NCBI GenBank assembly: GCA_947428835.1
Contig: CANENE010000012.1
Location: 1-59,250, forward strand
Length of the DNA stretch: 59,250 nt
DNA from: an uncultured bacterium
GTDB taxonomy: Bacteria > Cyanobacteriota > Vampirovibrionia > Gastranaerophilales > Gastranaerophilaceae
Direction of reading: 5' to 3'
A model generated the notes under the pieces. That model was not told the DNA's origin and ran no database searches. It was given only the letters and a program-made list of their open reading frames with translations. Shown piece after piece: positions 14,184 to 59,250 of the stretch. Within the stretch, counting starts at the first letter, position 1; each line of letters opens with the position of its first letter. A program made the translations under genes and the position numbers.

Positions 14184-17100
14184 TTAATTATACTTCTGTC
14201 CGTCATAAACGCATCTTGCACTAAATGCATGGTCGGATTGATGTCCGCCCAAAGCAACGAAGTTATCATACATTGCAGCATGCATATTCGCTGCGGTTTC
14301 AGTACCTGACCAAAAATAATTTGGATAACAAAAACCATTTCGGGCATTGCTGCAATTTTGGTATGAACTACATCTTACAAAACCCGTATTGCTTTCTCCT
14401 ATACATAATTGCAAGCCATCTTTACCTCTGTCTGTTTGTATTATATTTTTATAATTACTAAAACCTGCAAGTTCCATTTGAGTAGGCAATCTCCAATAAC
14501 CTGCTTGTGTTTTGCCTCCTGCAGTATGTGCCCTGCAGGCAGCGTTGGCTGCATACCACTGGCAAACGGTTCTGTTGCAGCCCGAATAATCTGCTCCGGC
14601 ATTACCCACTATTGTACAGGTTCCGGATGTTTTGCCTTTCCAGCAGCAATATCCCGATTTAGGACAACTTAGGCCACCGGTCATAATCAGGTTGTAATCT
14701 CCGCCTGGTATACCAGGACCTGAACCACTTGGACCTGAATCTCCAACATTATATTTGCTTACACACAAGTTTCTCATGCCGCCGGCGTACTTTTTATGAA
14801 CAAATATAGCTGTCAATTTATCACAATCAGCCTGACTTTTAGGCTCATCACTTGGAGCATTGGTGTCATCATAATCTGTTGGTATTTCTATTTTTCTCGT
14901 GGTTCCGTCATATACACACCTTGCACTAAATGCATGGTCTGATTGATGTCCGCCTACGCCAATAAAATTATCATGCATTGCATTATGTAAGTCGGTTGAA
15001 GCCTCGGTTCCCGACCAAAAATAATTTGGATAACAAAAACCATTCCTGGAGGAACAATTTTTGTAAGAATCGCACCTTGCAAAACCTGTATTGCTTCCTT
15101 CTGCACACAATTGCAGACCGTCTTTACCCCTATCTATTTGTATTATATTTTTATAATTACTAAAACTTGTAAATTCCATTTGTGTAGGTAATCTCCAACT
15201 TCCTGCCGGAGTCTTTCCTCCTGCTGTCCAAAGAAGACAAGCTTCATTTGCAGCATACCACTGGCAAACGGTTCTGTTACAGCCCGAATAATCTGCTCCG
15301 GCATTACCTCCTATTGAGCAGGTTCCGGATGTTTTGCCTTTCCAGCAGCAATAACCGGCAAGCGGACAAGATGCTCCACCTGTAGCAATAGTATAATCTG
15401 TATAGGCAGAAGGTATACTAGGGCCTGAACCGCTTGGACCTGAATCTCCAACATTATATTTGCTTACACACAAGTTTCTCATGCCGCCGGCGTACTTTTT
15501 ATGAACAAATATAGCTGTCAATTTATCACAATCAGCCTGACTTTTAGGCTCATCGGCAGGGCCATTGGTATCATCATAATCAGATAAATCATCTTCATAA
15601 TTATTTGCCTTTGTTATACCATCATAAACACACCTTGCGCTGAACGCATGTGCAGATTGATGTCCGCCTACGCCAATAAAATTATCATGCATTGCATTAT
15701 GAAAATCTGCTTTAGTTTCAGTACCTGACCAAAAATAATTTGGATAACAATAGCCATTTTGGGCATTACCACAATTTTGGTATTGATCACACCTTACAAA
15801 ACCCGTATTACTTCCTGCTGCACAAAGTTGAAGTCCATTGGCGCCTTTATTTATTTGAACTGTAGACTTATTTACACTCCAAACAGATATTTCAGAACTT
15901 TTTGGAAGCCTCCATGCACCAACTGCAGTAGCTCCAAAGGCATTATATTGTCTGCAGGCGGAATTCGCTGCATACCACTGGCAAACTGTTCTGTTACAGC
16001 CCGAATAATTAGCTCCCGCATTTCCGTCTAATCCGCAAGTTCCGGATGTTTTGCCTCTCCAGCAGCAATGGCCGTCAAGCGGACAAGTTGGACCTCCTGT
16101 TGATAGAATATCATATCCATCAGGTATAGGCGGTCCAAACCCGTCGGGACCTGCGTCTCCTACGTTGTATTTAGAAACACAGATGTTTCTATTGGCTCCT
16201 GACATTTTTTTATCTATAAATATCCCGACAATCTTATCGCAATCGGCTTGGTCTTTTGGTTCTCCATAAAAAGGGTCGGTGGTCGGATCTTTTATACCAT
16301 TACCGGGGAGCTCTGATATATCAACATTTATATGATCAAGCACGCATCTTGCTGAAAAAGCATAATTTTGATTATATTTGTTTGCATTAAAAGCACCATT
16401 TGTAAGAGTGTTTGCATAATGTGTATCACTATCATCTTCTGATGCAGTTAATGACCAAACAAGATCGGGATAACAGCCATTTTTTATTCCTTCTTCGCCA
16501 TTTGTAGGGCACCCGTTTATTTTAAAGTCACATTGATTTGAACCCAAAGCAGATGAAGATGCATCACAAAGCTGCAGCCCTTCTTTTCCTTTATTATTAT
16601 TTATATTTACCAAATTACTTGACCAATTGGCCAATTCATCTTTGTTGGGTAATCTCCAGCTTCCTTCATTTTCATCGTTTGGATCATAAGAGGCACAGCT
16701 TGCATTTGCAGCAGCAAACTGACATACGGTTCTGTTACAACCCGAGTAATCGCCGTCTCCATTTTTTCCTGTTGTGCAGGTTGTACTTGTATTTCCGCTC
16801 CAGCAGCAACTGCCTTTATCTTTATCGGTACATGTATTTCCGACAGTTAATTTCTTAACACTGCCTGCCAGTGGAAGGTCATTATCTCCCATATTGTATT
16901 TAGTAACACATAAGTTTCTTACTCCTCCGTTCATTGCAGCAGGAATAAACAGAGCATCATATTTATCGCAATCTTCTTTTGTAACTTGTCTTTCTAATGT
17001 CATATTAATGTTGCTTCCGCTTCCAAAAGAACCTATTGAAATATCTGATGCTTTAAGCTTCTTTGTTATAATCGGGGCAAATGCCGCAACTAAAAGAGAG

Positions 17101-17186
17101 ATAATAATCAAACTAATTAAAAGCTCGATTAAAGAAAATGCACCAAAACTAACCCTATTTTGGGCTTTTTTAAAAATTTCAATCAT
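14184..17186 (-). CDS. Type IV pilin-like Cys-rich surface protein, four modules
   Basis: A 1000-residue protein with a prepilin N-terminus: FGA then FSLIELL (Glu +5), hydrophobic helix, AFAPIITKKLKA. Ala, not Gly, precedes the cleavage site. Four Cys-rich modules follow at about 71-284, 311-514, 548-750 and 783-1000; modules 2-4 repeat every 235-237 residues. Each has KYNxGD, CCWxGxT, YSGCNRTVCQ, WRLP, GLQLC, CYPNYFWSGT (varied in module 1) and FSARCVYD. Linkers are acidic (DYDDTNAP). Bases 14728-14849 and 15433-15554 are identical over 122 bp, a sign of recent duplication or gene conversion. Motifs resemble FISUMP/Lcl_C lectin-like domains. AAAAGG precedes the ATG. It is divergent from a double-XRE regulator. 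Likely a surface or pilus-associated binding protein; ligand unknown. Confidence 0.88.
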   Translation of the reverse strand: MIEIFKKAQNRVSFGAFSLIELLISLIIISLLVAAFAPIITKKLKASDISIGSFGSGSNINMTLERQVTKEDCDKYDALFIPAAMNGGVRNLCVTKYNMGDNDLPLAGSVKKLTVGNTCTDKDKGSCCWSGNTSTTCTTGKNGDGDYSGCNRTVCQFAAANASCASYDPNDENEGSWRLPNKDELANWSSNLVNINNNKGKEGLQLCDASSSALGSNQCDFKINGCPTNGEEGIKNGCYPDLVWSLTASEDDSDTHYANTLTNGAFNANKYNQNYAFSARCVLDHINVDISELPGNGIKDPTTDPFYGEPKDQADCDKIVGIFIDKKMSGANRNICVSKYNVGDAGPDGFGPPIPDGYDILSTGGPTCPLDGHCCWRGKTSGTCGLDGNAGANYSGCNRTVCQWYAANSACRQYNAFGATAVGAWRLPKSSEISVWSVNKSTVQINKGANGLQLCAAGSNTGFVRCDQYQNCGNAQNGYCYPNYFWSGTETKADFHNAMHDNFIGVGGHQSAHAFSARCVYDGITKANNYEDDLSDYDDTNGPADEPKSQADCDKLTAIFVHKKYAGGMRNLCVSKYNVGDSGPSGSGPSIPSAYTDYTIATGGASCPLAGYCCWKGKTSGTCSIGGNAGADYSGCNRTVCQWYAANEACLLWTAGGKTPAGSWRLPTQMEFTSFSNYKNIIQIDRGKDGLQLCAEGSNTGFARCDSYKNCSSRNGFCYPNYFWSGTEASTDLHNAMHDNFIGVGGHQSDHAFSARCVYDGTTRKIEIPTDYDDTNAPSDEPKSQADCDKLTAIFVHKKYAGGMRNLCVSKYNVGDSGPSGSGPGIPGGDYNLIMTGGLSCPKSGYCCWKGKTSGTCTIVGNAGADYSGCNRTVCQWYAANAACRAHTAGGKTQAGYWRLPTQMELAGFSNYKNIIQTDRGKDGLQLCIGESNTGFVRCSSYQNCSNARNGFCYPNYFWSGTETAANMHAAMYDNFVALGGHQSDHAFSARCVYDGQKYN
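14728..14849. repeat. 122-bp direct repeat inside pilin-like gene 2, copy 1
   Basis: Identical to 15433-15554, offset by exactly 705 bp (235 codons, one module). It covers the module start, including the KSQADCDK and VSKYNVGDSG coding region. Confidence 0.9.
15433..15554. repeat. 122-bp direct repeat inside pilin-like gene 2, copy 2
   Basis: Exact partner of 14728-14849, marking modules 3 and 4 of the protein. Confidence 0.9.
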
Positions 17187-22216: not shown

Positions 22217-22245
22217 TTGACAAAAAAATTTATTTACAGTATTTA
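22217..22245 (+). promoter_or_regulatory. Promoter of the Trp-rich ORF
   Basis: Consensus TTGACA (22217-22222), 17-bp spacer, TATTTA (22240-22245). Expected start point at about 22252, about 23 nt before the ATG. Confidence 0.6.
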
Positions 22246-22274
22246 TATATATGCCCCTTGAAAAAGGAATTACA

Positions 22275-22364
22275 ATGACAAACAACTTCAACAATATGAA
22301 TTTAAACTGGTGGTGGAGCCTTGATAACTTGACAGGCTTTAGTTTTGCATATTGTTGGCTTTAA
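22275..22364 (+). CDS. Trp-rich 29-residue peptide, possible attenuator leader
   Basis: A 29-codon ORF after AAAGGAA: MTNNFNNMNLNWWWSLDN then LTGFSFAYCWL. It has three consecutive Trp codons (22308-22316) plus Trp28. Downstream is a Rho-independent hairpin. AGCCT (22317-22321) can pair with AGGCT (22334-22338); TGACAGG (22330-22336) can pair with CCTGTCA (22396-22402), which is also the left arm of the terminator. This matches the alternating-stem layout of transcription attenuators. But the downstream gene is a membrane protein with no known tryptophan link, so a free-standing small peptide is an alternative. Confidence 0.55.
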   Translation: MTNNFNNMNLNWWWSLDNLTGFSFAYCWL

Positions 22365-22391
22365 AAATTCAAACAACATTTAAAATTAAAC

Positions 22392-22421
22392 AAATCCTGT
22401 CAGATATGAGCAGGATTTTTT
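22392..22421 (+). terminator. Terminator or attenuator hairpin
   Basis: AAATCCTG pairs with CAGGATTT around 11 nt, followed by T-rich sequence. It lies between the Trp-rich ORF and the 430-residue membrane protein gene. Confidence 0.75.
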
Positions 22422-22470
22422 ATTTTGTTTAAAACCATTGTTTTTATTTTTAAAGTTAAAGGAAATTAAA

Positions 22471-23763
22471 ATGCCAATAGAATCAATCAGTTCATCAAAA
22501 ATAATTCAAAATTTACCAAACCACATAAAACCCATTGCAAACTACCTTCAAAAGCAAGAAGCAAAAGGAGGCGCTTCGCTTGCAAATTCAAGATTTATTC
22601 AAGATACTGCAACAAATCTTGCGCCAAAAGCAATTTTTTCAAGATCAAAAGCAGACCTTTTTGATATGAGTTTTCTAGAAGTATCAGAAAGCCTGCTTGT
22701 ATATTATTGCCCGACTTTAATGGGTGAAAAAGTATTTAGAAAAGGCTATTCAAAAGGGCTTGATAAGGTTTTATCATCAAAAGTTTCAACACCTTTAGCT
22801 CAATTAAACCTCGACAAATCCTTATCAAAAGAAGATTTAGAAAAAATCAAACCCGTTAAAGCTGCAATAGCGCTATCTTCTATGCTTATTCCGCTAACGG
22901 AATTTACATTGAATTTCTTTAAAAATCTTTTTACTTTGAAGCTTTTTAAACAATCGGATTTCAATAATATTGCAAATCTAAATAAAACCAAAGACAAAAA
23001 AGAAGACAAAAAAGACCAAGACAAGGTAAGAAAAAATGCAATAAAAAATATCCTTGGGGCAGGGGCTGTATTTTTAGGCTGCATTGGTATGTCTCAGCTT
23101 ATTTTAAAAAAGGGAACAGATTCTAAAGCGCTTCAAAAATTTGCAGATTTTATTCTAACCCCGGGTGATGTCCTATTTAAAAACAATGAAAAAGCAAGAA
23201 ATTTCACAAATAAATATTTTTCTCTTGATTTTGCAGATAACGGAGGAAAATTGGGCTTAAGCCACGGACAATTGACTTCTTGCGTTTTAATTGGAGGTAT
23301 TGGCTATTTTAAAGCCGCAAAAGACAGAGGCAGACAAAATTTCTTAGAAACATTATTCAGATATCCGCTTGTAGGTTTTTATGTGATAACAGGAAGCGAA
23401 CTTTTTGAAAAAGGCTTTAAAAAATTCCTTCAAAACAAAAACGACTACAAAGAAATTATAGACAAGGACTTAAATGTTAAGAAATTTAGCGAACTATCCG
23501 ATATCGCTCAAAAATTGGCCAAACAAAATAAAACAACACTTGAAAAAGAATTCGGTTCGCTTGTAAATAAAAAAGCTATGATATCGGCTGTTCCGTTTGC
23601 TTTTTCTATTGGTTTCATGGGACTTTTTGTAGCAGGAATTTCAAGATTTTTCACTCAATACAGATACAATAAAGAGCAGGAAAAATTGAAAAACAATAGA
23701 TTAAATCCCTTTCAAAATTTCAATGACTTTAAAAATGAAGTTGGAAAAAACCATTTAAAGTAA
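22471..23763 (+). CDS. Multi-pass membrane protein, unknown
   Basis: The protein has 430 residues from the ATG at 22471, which follows AAAGGAAA; a TTG at 22438 is also in frame. I recognise no family. Hydrophobic segments are visible near residues 125-150, 200-220, 275-290, 305-325 and 380-400, separated by Lys-rich stretches (KDKKEDKKDQDKVRK). The N-terminus is polar and lacks a signal peptide. The gene follows the Trp-rich ORF and its hairpin, so read-through may control it. It precedes map by 25 bp. Confidence 0.75.
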   Translation: MPIESISSSKIIQNLPNHIKPIANYLQKQEAKGGASLANSRFIQDTATNLAPKAIFSRSKADLFDMSFLEVSESLLVYYCPTLMGEKVFRKGYSKGLDKVLSSKVSTPLAQLNLDKSLSKEDLEKIKPVKAAIALSSMLIPLTEFTLNFFKNLFTLKLFKQSDFNNIANLNKTKDKKEDKKDQDKVRKNAIKNILGAGAVFLGCIGMSQLILKKGTDSKALQKFADFILTPGDVLFKNNEKARNFTNKYFSLDFADNGGKLGLSHGQLTSCVLIGGIGYFKAAKDRGRQNFLETLFRYPLVGFYVITGSELFEKGFKKFLQNKNDYKEIIDKDLNVKKFSELSDIAQKLAKQNKTTLEKEFGSLVNKKAMISAVPFAFSIGFMGLFVAGISRFFTQYRYNKEQEKLKNNRLNPFQNFNDFKNEVGKNHLK

Positions 23764-23788
23764 TATAATTATTTTGAAAGGAAATCAA

Positions 23789-24535
23789 ATGCATAAAAAA
23801 TCAAGACAAGAAATAAAGCTTATGAAAATGGCGGGAAATATTGTAGCTCTTGTTCATCAGGAGATGAAAAAGGTGATAGAGCCCGGCATTTCCACTCTTG
23901 AATTAGATAAAATTGCCTATGATATCATAAAAAAGAATAAAGCGGTGCCGACTTTTCTTGGCTATGGCGGTTTTCCAAATACAATTTGCACATCTGTTAA
24001 TGAACAGGTAGTCCACGGAATTCCATCCAAAGACGTTATTTTAAAAGAAGGCGATATAGTATCTATTGACGTTGGCGCAACTTTTAGGGGATTGGTTGGA
24101 GATAGTGCCTGGAGTTATGCAGTCGGAAAAGTTTCAAAAGATATCGAACATCTTATGGAAGTAACTCAAAAAGCCCTTTTTGCAGGTATTGAGCAAATGA
24201 TACCCGATACTCCTTTAGAAAACGTTTCAGCAGCTATTGAAGATGAAGCAATTAAAGGTAAGGTTGGAATTGTGCGCGAATACGGAGGCCACGGCGTAGG
24301 CTATGAAATGCACGAAAACCCTTTTCTTTATAATTATAGGACAGGTTCAAAAACCATAATTAAAGAAAATTGCGCAATTGCAATTGAACCTATGCTAAAT
24401 CTCGGATGTGATGAAGTTCATACACTGGCTGACGGCTGGACTGTTGTAACGGATGATAAAAAACCGTCAGCGCATTTTGAACATACCGTTATTGCAACTC
24501 CGGAAGGTCCCTTGATTACCACAACCCTTCCATAG
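23789..24535 (+). CDS. map: Methionine aminopeptidase, type I
   Basis: Map removes the initiator Met from new proteins. The start at 23789 (248 residues) follows AAAGGAAA; a TTG at 23774 is in frame but lies upstream of that site. Metal ligands are visible: Asp in SIDVGATFRGLVGD (two Asp), His in GHGVGYEMHE, Glu in AIEPM, and Glu in HFEHT. TFLGYGGFPNTICTSVNEQVVHGIP is the family core. Its 3' end overlaps the convergent EF-hand gene by 20 bp. Confidence 0.95.
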   Translation: MHKKSRQEIKLMKMAGNIVALVHQEMKKVIEPGISTLELDKIAYDIIKKNKAVPTFLGYGGFPNTICTSVNEQVVHGIPSKDVILKEGDIVSIDVGATFRGLVGDSAWSYAVGKVSKDIEHLMEVTQKALFAGIEQMIPDTPLENVSAAIEDEAIKGKVGIVREYGGHGVGYEMHENPFLYNYRTGSKTIIKENCAIAIEPMLNLGCDEVHTLADGWTVVTDDKKPSAHFEHTVIATPEGPLITTTLP

Positions 24536-31989: not shown

Positions 31990-33504
31990 TTAATTCGTTG
32001 GAATTTTATCCAAAACACATCTTGCAGAGCTTCCGTATGAATCCATATGCGCGGTTTTACAATATAACGTGGTAGAAACCCCTGCGTGTATATGTCTTGA
32101 ATAATGACATTTATCATCTTCGTTATAGGTTCCTGACCATAAATGGGAGGGTCCGCAAGCTCCTTCATAATCCACATGCTTACATTTATCTGCAAGATAA
32201 TAGCAATGAACGGAACCGTGGGAAGCATCCCAATGATCACACAATTGCAGACCCGAAGTACCTTTATTCAAGGTAATTGAAGCAAAATTATTTGCCCAGC
32301 CGTTTATTTCATTTAAGCTTGGAAGTCTCCAAAGACCTTTAGTCCCTTCTATAGAATAATTTTGGCAGGAGATGTTGCTTGCAGACCATGTGCAAAGAGT
32401 TCTGTTGCAGCCGCTATAAGCTTTACTTGCATCTCCGTTGCCGATAGTGCCGCAATTGCCTGAGGTTTTTCCCATCCAACAGCAAGCATCCTGATAGCAA
32501 ACAGAATTAACATCTATAATTCTGACATTTGGGTCTATATAAATATCGCCGATATTATATTTGGTTACACAAAGATTTTTATTATCCTGACCGTTATAAG
32601 CTTTATCTATAAAAATTGCATTAAATTTATCACAATCTGCCTGATTTTGGGGTTCTTTATAATCAGGCTTTTCTTTGGGCGGCTCTCCTGTTATGGTATC
32701 AATGACACAACGTGTACTAAATGCATATGTATTCCCATGCCCTAAAGATGTAATAAAATCGTCGTACATTATTAAATGAGCACCGATGCCTTGAGCGCCT
32801 TGGATTTCTTGATCGGCGGACCACAGGTAACCGGGGAAACAGTAGTTATTTTGAGCGGCACCTTGACATCTTTGTGCATAATTACATCTAACAAGTCCTT
32901 TATCACTATTTTTAGTTGTACAAAATTGTAACCCGTCTTTTCCTTTGTTGTTATTTAAAATATCTTTGTTGATTGCCCATTGTCCAAATTCAATATATTT
33001 TGGCAGTCTCCAACTGCCTTCGGGAGTATTGCCATTTGCTGTATATGCCTTGCAGGATAAATTTGCAGCATTCCATTGGCAAACAGTTCTGTTACAACCA
33101 GAATAATCAGCATCGGCATTCCCTGTTATTCCGCATTCTGATGAGGTATTGCCTTGCCAACAACAATTGCCGCTATCTGTACATGTTTGATTGACGGAAA
33201 GTTTTAAAACATTTGATGCAATTGCAATGTCTTTATCTCCGACATTATACTTTGTAACACATATATTTTTAGCTCCGCCATTCATCTCTTTTGGAATATA
33301 TAATGCGTTCCATTTATCACAATCTTCCTTTGTAACAGGCCTTACCGACGGTTTAGCTTCTTCATTTTTTGAACTAAAGCTTCCGACTGTGATATCTGTA
33401 GCTTTAAGTTTCTTTGTAATAATCGGGGCAAAGGCTCTAATTAAAAGCGAAATTATAATCAAGCTTACTAAAAGCTCAATTAAGCTAAAAGCGTATTTTT
33501 TCAT
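31990..33504 (-). CDS. Type IV pilin-like Cys-rich surface protein, two modules
   Basis: A 504-residue member of the family. The leader is very short (MKKYA) before FSLIELL with Glu at +5; Ala precedes the cleavage site. The helix ends RAFAPIITKKLKATD. Two Cys-rich modules (about 61-270 and 288-504) carry KYNVGD, CCWQGNT or CCWMGKT, YSGCNRT, WRLP, GLQFC or GLQLC, and RCV-D. The linker is GEPPKEKPDYKEPQNQADCDK. It shares GAAAATAACATG at its start with pilin-like gene 1. Divergent from an XRE regulator. Role as for the other members: exported, disulfide-rich, probably surface binding; unproven. Confidence 0.86.
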   Translation of the reverse strand: MKKYAFSLIELLVSLIIISLLIRAFAPIITKKLKATDITVGSFSSKNEEAKPSVRPVTKEDCDKWNALYIPKEMNGGAKNICVTKYNVGDKDIAIASNVLKLSVNQTCTDSGNCCWQGNTSSECGITGNADADYSGCNRTVCQWNAANLSCKAYTANGNTPEGSWRLPKYIEFGQWAINKDILNNNKGKDGLQFCTTKNSDKGLVRCNYAQRCQGAAQNNYCFPGYLWSADQEIQGAQGIGAHLIMYDDFITSLGHGNTYAFSTRCVIDTITGEPPKEKPDYKEPQNQADCDKFNAIFIDKAYNGQDNKNLCVTKYNIGDIYIDPNVRIIDVNSVCYQDACCWMGKTSGNCGTIGNGDASKAYSGCNRTLCTWSASNISCQNYSIEGTKGLWRLPSLNEINGWANNFASITLNKGTSGLQLCDHWDASHGSVHCYYLADKCKHVDYEGACGPSHLWSGTYNEDDKCHYSRHIHAGVSTTLYCKTAHMDSYGSSARCVLDKIPTN

Positions 33505-44806: not shown

Positions 44807-45847
44807 TTAATCAAACAATTTTTGTATTTCAGAGGGCTTAAAGATGCCATATTCTGTGATAATGCCTGCTATAAGCTCATTTGGTGTAACATCAAAAGAA
44901 GGATTTATAACATTTACTTTATCCGTACAAACAGGTTTATCATTTACTATTGTAACTTCTTGCTTTCCTCTAAGTTCTATTACAATTTCATCGCCTGTTT
45001 TGATATCAGGGTCAATTGTTGATTTTGGAGCTGCAATATAAAAAGGAATATTATGGTATTTGGCTGCTATTGCTACCATATATGTACCGATTTTATTTGC
45101 ACTATCCCCGTTCAGTGCGATTCTGTCTGCTCCAACTACAACTACATCAATCTTGCCTTGTTTCATAAAATAAGCCCCCATTCCATCTGTAATAAGGGTT
45201 GTATCTATATTATCAAGGGTAAGTTCATATGTTGTAAGCCTTGCCCCCTGCCCTCTGGGTCTTGTTTCATCAGCAAAAACTTTAATAGTATTATCTTTTT
45301 TATAGGCAGATCTTATAACGCCAAGTGCCGTTCCATAGCCTACTGTTGCCAATCTTCCTGCGTTACAGTGAGTCAAAATTCCTGCTCCTTTTGGAATAAT
45401 TTCACTTCCAAAATCGCCGATTTTTTTATTTATTTCAATATCTTCATTTTCAAGTTTTATAGCATTTTCAATTAAATTTGAAATGGTTTCATCAATATTA
45501 TTAAAGTTATCTAAAATTTCAAGCTGTTTATCTATTGCCCATTTTAAATTAACAGCCGTTGGGCGCGAAGATTGGATATACTGCGCTTTTTTTTGAATTG
45601 CAGCTTTAAAACTATTAAAATTAGAATTATCTTTTTCTTCAATTGCTGCAAGAACAACCCCATGGGCTCCTGCAATACCTATTGCCGGCGCTCCTCTTAC
45701 AATCATTGTTTTGATTGCATTATACATTTCATCTGTTGTTTTTATGTCGATTTTTTTATATTCATAGGGAATGACTGTTTGATCAATCATCCTTGAATGT
45801 CCGAAATTACCTTGTCTAATCCATTCTATTGTTTTATCTTCAATCAT
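44807..45847 (-). CDS. mtnA: S-methyl-5-thioribose-1-phosphate isomerase
   Basis: MtnA converts methylthioribose-1-phosphate to methylthioribulose-1-phosphate in methionine salvage. The 346-residue protein shows MIVRGAPAIGIAGAHG, the catalytic Cys in LTHCNAGRLATVGYGTALG, DETRPRGQGARLTTYEL, and the catalytic Asp in VVVGADRIALNGDSANKIGTY. It is the third gene after ruvC and a small membrane protein. An MtnX-like phosphatase lies at 27.8 kb. Confidence 0.95.
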   Translation of the reverse strand: MIEDKTIEWIRQGNFGHSRMIDQTVIPYEYKKIDIKTTDEMYNAIKTMIVRGAPAIGIAGAHGVVLAAIEEKDNSNFNSFKAAIQKKAQYIQSSRPTAVNLKWAIDKQLEILDNFNNIDETISNLIENAIKLENEDIEINKKIGDFGSEIIPKGAGILTHCNAGRLATVGYGTALGVIRSAYKKDNTIKVFADETRPRGQGARLTTYELTLDNIDTTLITDGMGAYFMKQGKIDVVVVGADRIALNGDSANKIGTYMVAIAAKYHNIPFYIAAPKSTIDPDIKTGDEIVIELRGKQEVTIVNDKPVCTDKVNVINPSFDVTPNELIAGIITEYGIFKPSEIQKLFD

Positions 45848-57250: not shown

Positions 57251-59250
57251 TTACATACTTGAATAGTCCAATCCGTCATACACGCATCTTGCACTAAAAG
57301 CATAGGTATTTGCATGTTCACTATTTGGTATAAAATTATCGTACATTGTAAAATATTTATTGGTCCCTCCGGAAGTGCCTGTCCATAAGTAATTTGGATA
57401 ACAGTAACTGGCAGAACCCGGGCAATAACTTGCATAATAACATCTTACATATCCTGAGCGGATTTCTGCGGAGCAAAGCTGCAGTCCGTCTTTACCTCTG
57501 TTATTATTTACAATTTCCTGGTAATTTCTCATATTTGCAAGTTCGCTGTTGGTAGGAAGTCTCCAATATCCTGCTTTGGTTCCGCCTACGCTATGAGCTT
57601 TACAGGCGGCATTCGCTGCATCCCATTGACACACTGTTCTTGTACAACCTGAATAATCAGCTCCCGAATTTCCAACCATGCCGCAATAACCCGGATCAGC
57701 AGTCACTCCCGCCCAACAGCATTTTGGAGAATTACTGCAGGTTTGACCTGCCGCTATTTTACTGTAACCGCTTGGTAATTTTGGTCCCGAACCGCCTGAG
57801 CCGCCATCACCTACATTAAATTTAGTTACACATAGATTTCTCATTCCGCCTGCGTGTTTCTTATGTACAAATATTGCAACTAATTTATCACAATCCGCTT
57901 GGCTTTTGGGTTCATCTTCGGGAGCATTTTTGTCATCATAATCCGTTACTTCTTCGACTTTTCGAACAGTTCCATCATACACGCATCTTGCACTAAAAGC
58001 GTAACTACCTGCGTGATCACCTGCTCCTATAAAATTATCATATATTACGGAATATTTATTAGTTTCGCCAGAAGTTGATGACCACAAATAATTTGGATAA
58101 CAATAACTTGCCGAACCCGGACAATAACTTGCTTGATAGCATCTTACGTAACCGGAGCGAAAATCGGCTGAACAAAGCTGCAAGCCATCTTTACCTCTAT
58201 CGTTGTTTATAATTTCCTGATAATTCCCCATACTTCCAAGTTCCGCTTCAGTAGGGAGTCTCCATGCACCTGCTTGTGTTTTTCCTCCTGCAGTCCACAT
58301 TAAGCAAGCTTCGTTTGCAGGGTTCCAGTTGCAAAGCGTTCTTTTGCACCCCGAATAATCAGCTCCTGCATTGCCTGTTACACCACAAGCAGTTGTCTCT
58401 GCCGTTTGTCCTTTCCAACAGCAATAACCGGGTTGAGAACATTTTTGCCCCGAGCTCATAATATAATTATTGTAAGCAGATGGAATTGTAGGACCTGAAC
58501 CGCTTGGACCCGAGTCTCCCACATTATATTTACTTACACATAAATTTCTGCCGCTTCCTGCGTATTTTTTATGTACGAATATAGCAGTCAATTTATCACA
58601 ATCCGCCTGGCTTTTTGGTTCATCTTTAGGAGCATTACTATCGTCATAGCCACTTAAATCTTCGCTATAATTATCAGCTTTTGTGATGCCGTCATATACG
58701 CATCTTGCACTGAAAGCATAAGTTGAATCATGACCTGTTGTTATACTAAAATTATCATACATTGGTATGTGTTTACTAATATCAGTTGCGGTAGACGACC
58801 ACAAAAAATTTGGATAACAATAACTTGCCGAACCCGGACAATAACTTGCTTGATAGCATCTTACCAAGCCCGCACCTGTACTGCTTGAACACAACTGCAA
58901 ACCGTCTTTTCCTTTGTTATTATTTATTTCATTTTTATAAATAGACCAGGTGCTAAATTCAGCACTCGTTGGAAGCCTCCAGGCACCAACAGCTGTGGCA
59001 CCAAAAGCGTTATATTGCCTGCAGGCAGCATTTGCCGCATCCCAATTACAAACAGTTCTTGTGCAACCGGAGTAATTTGCTCCTGCATTTCCATCTATAC
59101 CACAAGCAGTCGTCTCTGCAGTTTGTCCTTTCCAGCAGCAAGCACCTGCCTGAGGACAACTTTCACTATTTGCACCAAGCACTTTGTATGTATTTGGTAT
59201 CGGAGGTCCAAACCCGTCAGGACCTGCGTCTCCTACATTGTATTTAGAAA
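57251..59250 (-). CDS. Type IV pilin-like Cys-rich surface protein, C-terminal part (runs off the window)
   Basis: The frame is open to the right edge (666 residues seen); no true start is present, and the GTG at 59182 is internal. Three modules are visible, each with KYNVGD, CCWxGxT, YSGC-RTxC, WRLPT, GLQLC, PGSASYCYPN and FSARCVYDG. The first lacks its first residues because of the edge. In order, they match modules 2, 3 and 4 of the 1000-residue gene: CRQYNAFGATAVGAWRLP is identical in the first pair. So a first module and prepilin N-terminus should lie beyond the edge, and probably an XRE regulator. C-terminus is YDGLDYSSM. Confidence 0.88.
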   Translation of the reverse strand, partial: SKYNVGDAGPDGFGPPIPNTYKVLGANSESCPQAGACCWKGQTAETTACGIDGNAGANYSGCTRTVCNWDAANAACRQYNAFGATAVGAWRLPTSAEFSTWSIYKNEINNNKGKDGLQLCSSSTGAGLVRCYQASYCPGSASYCYPNFLWSSTATDISKHIPMYDNFSITTGHDSTYAFSARCVYDGITKADNYSEDLSGYDDSNAPKDEPKSQADCDKLTAIFVHKKYAGSGRNLCVSKYNVGDSGPSGSGPTIPSAYNNYIMSSGQKCSQPGYCCWKGQTAETTACGVTGNAGADYSGCKRTLCNWNPANEACLMWTAGGKTQAGAWRLPTEAELGSMGNYQEIINNDRGKDGLQLCSADFRSGYVRCYQASYCPGSASYCYPNYLWSSTSGETNKYSVIYDNFIGAGDHAGSYAFSARCVYDGTVRKVEEVTDYDDKNAPEDEPKSQADCDKLVAIFVHKKHAGGMRNLCVTKFNVGDGGSGGSGPKLPSGYSKIAAGQTCSNSPKCCWAGVTADPGYCGMVGNSGADYSGCTRTVCQWDAANAACKAHSVGGTKAGYWRLPTNSELANMRNYQEIVNNNRGKDGLQLCSAEIRSGYVRCYYASYCPGSASYCYPNYLWTGTSGGTNKYFTMYDNFIPNSEHANTYAFSARCVYDGLDYSSM

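Follow-up and report, generated by a model that had tools for sequence, protein, structure and literature searches.

A tryptophan-codon leader with the arrangement of a transcription attenuator precedes an unannotated membrane protein gene in the Gastranaerophilaceae

The leader element and the gene downstream

We analysed a window of 59,250 nucleotides (positions 1 to 59,250 of contig CANENE010000012.1, assembly GCA_947428835.1) from an uncultured bacterium of the Gastranaerophilaceae (Cyanobacteriota; Vampirovibrionia; Gastranaerophilales). An initial annotation, made without database searches, had described a TTGACA promoter, an AAAGGAA motif, a Trp-rich 29-codon open reading frame (ORF), three stems and a T-run upstream of a gene for a 430-residue membrane protein, and every one of these elements was found where it had been placed. 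The features are listed below.

22217-22222, + strand: promoter -35 element TTGACA, read directly
around 22240-22251, + strand: -10-like TATTTATATATA region, read directly (promoter span 22217-22251)
22264-22270, + strand: Shine-Dalgarno-like AAAGGAA of the leader ORF, read directly, just 5′ of the ATG at 22275
22275-22364, + strand: leader ORF of 29 codons, MTNNFNNMNLNWWWSLDNLTGFSFAYCWL then stop, read directly and supported by homologues
22308-22316, + strand: regulatory codons TGG TGG TGG (TGGTGGTGG), read directly, with TGGTGG in aligned homologues
22317-22321, + strand: segment 1, AGCCT, pairing with AGGCT at 22334-22338, weak in the window
22330-22338, + strand: segment 2, TGACAGGCT, the 5′ outer arm of the antiterminator, from segment 2:segment 3 duplex energies
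22339-22391, + strand: inner part of the antiterminator hairpin, from folding segment 2 through segment 3
22396-22402, + strand: segment 3, CCTGTCA, partner of segment 2 or (with 22392-22395) of segment 4
22392-22421, + strand: intrinsic terminator AAATCCTGTCAGATATGAGCAGGATTT and T-run, -10.8 kcal/mol with a T tail
22471-23763, + strand: putatively controlled gene, 430-amino acid membrane protein, all-helical, without Trp and of unknown family

A fourth Trp codon forms the next-to-last codon of the leader ORF. Segments 2 and 3 pair through TGACAGG (22330-22336) and CCTGTCA (22396-22402), with a native duplex energy of -12.0 kcal/mol, and the antiterminator as a whole is a long imperfect hairpin (-16.9 kcal/mol) that spans the entire 3′ part of the ORF, its inner 5′ arm being the 3′ end of the ORF with the last Trp codon included. 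In the 3:4 pairing AAATCCTG (22392-22399) joins CAGGATTT (22411-22418), followed by T's to 22421, and this T-tailed hairpin lies 49 nt from the ATG of the membrane gene at 22471. Stem 1:2 is weak in the window, with a fold energy of -2.4 kcal/mol. That the element is not a product of chance follows from the stability of the leader RNA fold (z = -3.2; 0 of 200 shuffles were as stable) and from the presence of the same element before the gene in homologues.

An M24 methionine aminopeptidase-like gene (window 23789-24535) starts 25 nt 3′ of the membrane gene. Its co-control by the attenuator is uncertain because a promoter-like TTGGAA-17-TATAAT precedes it at 23741-23769. Elsewhere in the window three large paralogous proteins (14184-17186, 31990-33504 and 57251-59182) share a repeated Cys-rich unit (CDK..AIFI.KK..G..RNLCVSKYNVGD...), and two of the three have a type IV pilin-like N-terminus.

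Conservation and co-variation of the leader

Relatives of the membrane protein were found in 32 of 97 related genomes, and the family or a distant relative is carried by 213 of the 383 genomes of the order. A collection of named genomes contributed 80 loci, most of them under the label Candidatus Gastranaerophilales. Each of the 79 loci with upstream sequence has a short ORF with Trp-Trp approximately 80-220 nt 5′ of the gene, and this ORF starts with ATG in 76 and with TTG in 3. A single Trp codon is present in the leader of one order-level Trp-type locus (L017), and leader peptide residues other than the Trp codons vary widely among homologues. A search of the 97 relatives with the leader pattern found it only before the membrane gene (families f1, f6 and f7), and no conserved gene neighbour was detected, the commonest neighbour cluster occurring in only 13 loci. 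We infer that, as far as tested, the leader is a one-gene switch.

A sister paralogous subfamily carries leaders with runs of Met codons (e.g. MRKNNTMMMQMMMCGLNKGGHCCANRMC, then stop), also with terminators. Both types show an excess of exact TTGACA hexamers no more than 60 nt from the leader start: 27 of 86 Trp-type upstream regions have one (1.5 when shuffled), as do 59 of 70 Met-type regions (1.1 when shuffled).

The Trp leaders take two forms within one clade. In short leaders such as MNLHLVSKLNRSWWRL the stop codon separates segment 1 from segment 2 in the manner of classical trpL, while in long leaders such as MKNQQQNYINNLSWWWLYQNTGTFCWR, to which that of the window belongs, it falls 3′ of segment 2. 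Short leaders make up more than half of the distinct Trp leaders and have no next-to-last Trp codon; 33/33 long Trp leaders have it. The initial annotation had remarked that the window ORF runs past the first stem, unlike classical trpL, and had suggested that the mechanism might differ. The observation held, and the late stop codon is accounted for by an extended antiterminator whose 5′ arm the ORF traverses, where a moving ribosome would melt it, and by the coexistence of short, classical leaders with long ones in a single clade. As a separate observation, the regulatory codon adjoining the stop (window 22359-22364) is conserved in long Trp leaders and in most Met leaders, 61 of 71 Met leaders terminating in Met or in Met plus one residue. 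It is possible, though not shown, that a slow codon beside the stop could delay the ribosome while it covers the antiterminator arm, favouring termination under mild shortage.

Pairing between segments 2 and 3 is maintained by co-variation. Across 48 distinct segment-3 arms the mean S2:S3 energy was -15.0 kcal/mol for native pairs, -9.9 kcal/mol with the segment 3 of other species and -6.0 kcal/mol for shuffled arms. All four segments change together in co-varying sets, for example from CCTGT/ACAGG/CCTGT/ACAGG to GCTTGC/GCAAGC/GCTTGC/GCAAGC; the hexamers tabulated for these sets were chosen for maximal pairing, and the segment-swap energy test is the less biased of the two. The protective hairpin 1:2 has a mean z of -2.2 over 48 leaders. 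The initial annotation had named conservation of the Trp codons and compensatory changes in the stems as checks on its attenuator reading; both are met, since homologous loci retain the ORF with its Trp pair and the segments co-vary, although there are no expression data.

T-tailed hairpins are present in most distinct Trp-type leaders, a recognisable T-tailed terminator being missing in roughly 15. Among the leaders for which the analysis found no T-tailed 3:4 hairpin are L011, L053, L055, L067, L094, L126, L127 and L141. Control by such Trp-type leaders may be translational or follow some other route. A T-tailed hairpin was picked 3′ of 73/73 distinct Met-branch leaders. The choice of hairpin is probably wrong for L112, L183 and L208, and the Met-branch terminator results were taken from single rows, the mean being distorted by the wrong hairpin of L112.

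In the protein tree the Trp type forms one clade (100/99), the Met type adjoins it and the nearest outgroups have Met leaders, which makes it likely that the Trp type derived from a Met-type ancestor; the polarity is inferred, given the length of the deep branches. The class-level relatives L030 and L119 have Met-rich short ORFs 5′ of a terminator-like hairpin. Two loci of the Met branch depart from this pattern: in L208 the ORF picked has only two internal Met, and in L114 the leader is Ile-rich in place of Met codons. The L114 gene (G039:C33, 1504-3087, minus strand) has an Ile/Leu-rich leader (MITSLNIAIISLIIISLL...) and encodes a protein with 16 internal Met, compared with a Met-type mean of 3.2; a switch of the sensed amino acid is one possibility. 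Other Met-run leaders (ATGATGATGNNNATGATG) sought in the 97 relatives were, in the loci read, chance in-gene runs except at the membrane family, and they revealed no further regulated gene.

Amino acid composition, biosynthesis and the membrane protein

The products of these genes avoid the amino acid encoded in their leaders. The 94 distinct Trp-type proteins contain 6 Trp in 38,011 residues (0.016%) where ~327 would be expected, compared with 0.86% in neighbouring genes and 0.63% in 75 Met-type proteins. Internal Met makes up 0.72% of Met-type, 1.37% of Trp-type and 2.24% of neighbouring proteins (Met-type vs Trp-type, Mann-Whitney p 6e-15). Amino acid biosynthetic enzymes have been shown to avoid their own amino acid, a low cognate bias (PMC4209129), and the two cases are alike in that proteins needed in starvation shun the missing amino acid. 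Here, however, the bias is found in an unknown membrane family, is near-complete for Trp and matches the leader of each paralogue. By analogy, cognate avoidance is what would be expected of proteins made while that amino acid is missing. Cys is also low in Met-type proteins (0.40% vs 1.11% in Trp-type). Met-type leaders often contain Cys codons, and together with the Cys-poor products this leaves it possible that the Met type responds to sulphur amino acids in general.

The genome of the window is 97.7% complete and has no trpA above the cut-off. Across the order trpA is absent from 128 of the 138 genomes counted as Trp-type, a lower bound on their number, and from 201 of 245 others (Fisher p 0.0035, uncorrected for phylogeny); many genomes that do not carry the Trp type also lack trpA. 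Among the 97 relatives, metE or the MetH activation domain was detected in 0 of 32 carriers and in 15 of 65 non-carriers, MetH forms without the domain falling outside the count. The genome of the window likewise has no detectable metE or MetH activation domain; it contains an ORF at window 44807-45847 that, from its sequence alone, may encode a methylthioribose-1-phosphate isomerase.

An independent link to tryptophan comes from a genome of the same genus (G022), in which a leader, MTKNFKNNLFWWCLY, and a T-run precede trpEG-D-C-F-B-A. Its stems 1:2, 2:3 and 3:4 have energies of -9.9, -14.6 and -12.3 kcal/mol, and the genes were assigned by NCBIfam, except trpC, which was assigned by operon position. 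The operon (L230, G022:C73, 149-6768) is complete, with a trpEG fusion of TrpE-clade3 type, trpD, trpC, trpF, trpB and trpA. It may have been acquired, since other members of the genus are without trpA. Two other genomes with trpA showed no Trp leader at their trp operons (L228 and L229).

The 430-amino acid product has a confident, all-helical AlphaFold2 model (pLDDT 89.7, pTM 0.86), and hydropathy indicates few strongly hydrophobic stretches. It matched no family in Pfam or NCBIfam and had no sequence relative in the PDB. Fold searches gave only background (Foldseek best E 0.05; VIA Z up to 6.6), which does not prove a new fold.

Proposed mechanism, alternatives and known systems

The ORF, segments and terminator, with their conservation and co-variation, are established, as are the amino acid depletion and the lack of trpA and of both metE and the MetH activation domain. 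We consider it very probable, on comparative support, that the leader is a ribosome-mediated transcription attenuator sensing charged tRNA-Trp; stalling and in vivo read-through are inferred. With ample Trp, the leading ribosome would traverse the 29-codon ORF and melt the 5′ arm of the antiterminator, which consists of segment 2 and the last part of the ORF; segment 3 would then join segment 4 and transcription would stop at ~22421. When Trp is scarce, the ribosome would stall at WWW, covering segment 1 and leaving segment 2 free to join segment 3 in the long hairpin; no terminator would form and RNA polymerase would enter the gene. The sister paralogues would switch in the same way for Met through their Met-run leaders. 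An ORF reaching through segment 2 may also lower basal read-through.

The initial annotation had linked the membrane protein to Trp supply, and this part of its reading is strengthened by the near-Trp-free products, the attenuator at the same-genus trp operon and the absence of trpA; transport, which it gave as an example, is still only an inference. In our reading the gene yields a membrane protein free of Trp, made in Trp scarcity, that would acquire external Trp, as an importer or as part of a scavenging system. This function is inferred: acquisition would be the simplest role, in an auxotroph, for a gene predicted to be induced by shortage of one amino acid and whose product is built without that amino acid, and substrate-specific uptake would fit the existence of two paralogues with two specificities; we regard the case as evenly balanced. 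A role in the metabolism of the sensed amino acid is shown only for the genes behind the leader of the same-genus trp operon. A bolder proposal, which we hold only tentatively and think slightly more apt to fail than to stand, is that these proteins are a new family of amino acid importers in non-photosynthetic cyanobacteria, in which the attenuator of each paralogue senses its own substrate (Trp, Met and once Ile) and the protein is purged of it. If true, specificity could be read from the leader, and attenuators with Met runs would represent a type of sensor without precedent in the literature searched.

The alternative that survives best accepts the attenuator and makes the product a non-transporter, a membrane effector of starvation acting for example in growth arrest, envelope remodelling or proteolysis of scavenged protein. 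In its favour, no transporter family or fold was matched, there is no conserved operon partner and strongly hydrophobic stretches are few. Against it, the existence of distinct Trp and Met paralogues under separate sensors is easier to reconcile with substrate-specific acquisition than with a general response, and carriers are mostly without the corresponding biosynthesis. We lean slightly away from it without being able to set it aside.

A TnaC-like arrest, in which free Trp and the leader peptide would stall the ribosome and induce a Trp-handling gene when Trp is plentiful, is supported by the invariant next-to-last Trp of the 33 long Trp leaders. We judge it highly improbable, however, as that codon is missing from the short leaders, which are the majority of the distinct Trp leaders, Trp-free products make sense only if expressed without Trp, an intrinsic terminator and a co-varying antiterminator are present, Met runs occupy the same place in the Met branch and the same architecture is found at a trp biosynthetic operon. 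A reading in which the ORF is simply a small protein gene ending in its own terminator, with the membrane gene transcribed from another promoter and the stems coincidental, is plausible for a single genome, where short ORFs often have a terminator behind them, but is virtually ruled out by the co-variation of in-ORF segment 2 with segment 3 of the terminator, the linkage of the leader to one gene family throughout and the wide variation of peptide residues besides the Trp codons.

Under the attenuator reading, an unannotated and widespread membrane family of gut bacteria gains a testable function. The probable substrate can be read from the leader, with independent support from the avoidance of the same amino acid by the product. 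Ribosome-mediated attenuation would extend to Melainabacteria, with Met added as a sensed amino acid, and regulatory specificity would appear to be exchangeable between paralogues while the protein adapts accordingly. The long leaders suggest a design rule whereby an ORF running through the antiterminator lets the ribosome itself suppress basal read-through.

No precedent for leader peptides of Melainabacteria or for Met-codon attenuators was found in the open-access literature searched. Rfam describes other Trp peptide leader RNAs, Trp_leader (RF00513) and Bacteroid-trp (RF01692), and the scan gave no match to either at the gathering threshold, Bacteroid-trp scoring 20 bits on the leader against a cut-off of 49 (E 8.9). 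Membership of TnaC by sequence was rejected: TnaC has one Trp at a set distance from a C-terminal Pro-stop, and the leaders here have a Trp run and no terminal Pro before the stop. T-box-controlled Trp uptake genes of Firmicutes (e.g. trpX of Streptococcus suis, PMC9382623) are likewise probable Trp acquisition genes under RNA-level control, whereas the present system would use a leader peptide and the ribosome rather than a tRNA-binding T-box; the T-box covariance model had no match, the only hit in the window at gathering scores being a tRNA. In architecture the leader resembles the attenuator of the E. coli trp operon, trpL, and leader-peptide attenuators related to it (PMC1183508): both have consecutive Trp codons, four segments whose 1:2, 2:3 and 3:4 pairings exclude one another, a T-run and, for the present leader as a proposal, coupling to ribosome stalling. 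It differs in preceding an unknown membrane protein rather than trp enzymes and, in the long type, in having its stop codon 3′ of segment 2, inside the antiterminator loop, with another Trp codon before the stop. The His leader peptides that precede hisS paralogues of bacilli (PMC2965389) similarly represent leader-peptide attenuation outside the Proteobacteria and Actinobacteria acting on paralogous genes, but involve a single amino acid, whereas here one family has leaders for Trp, for Met and, once, for Ile.
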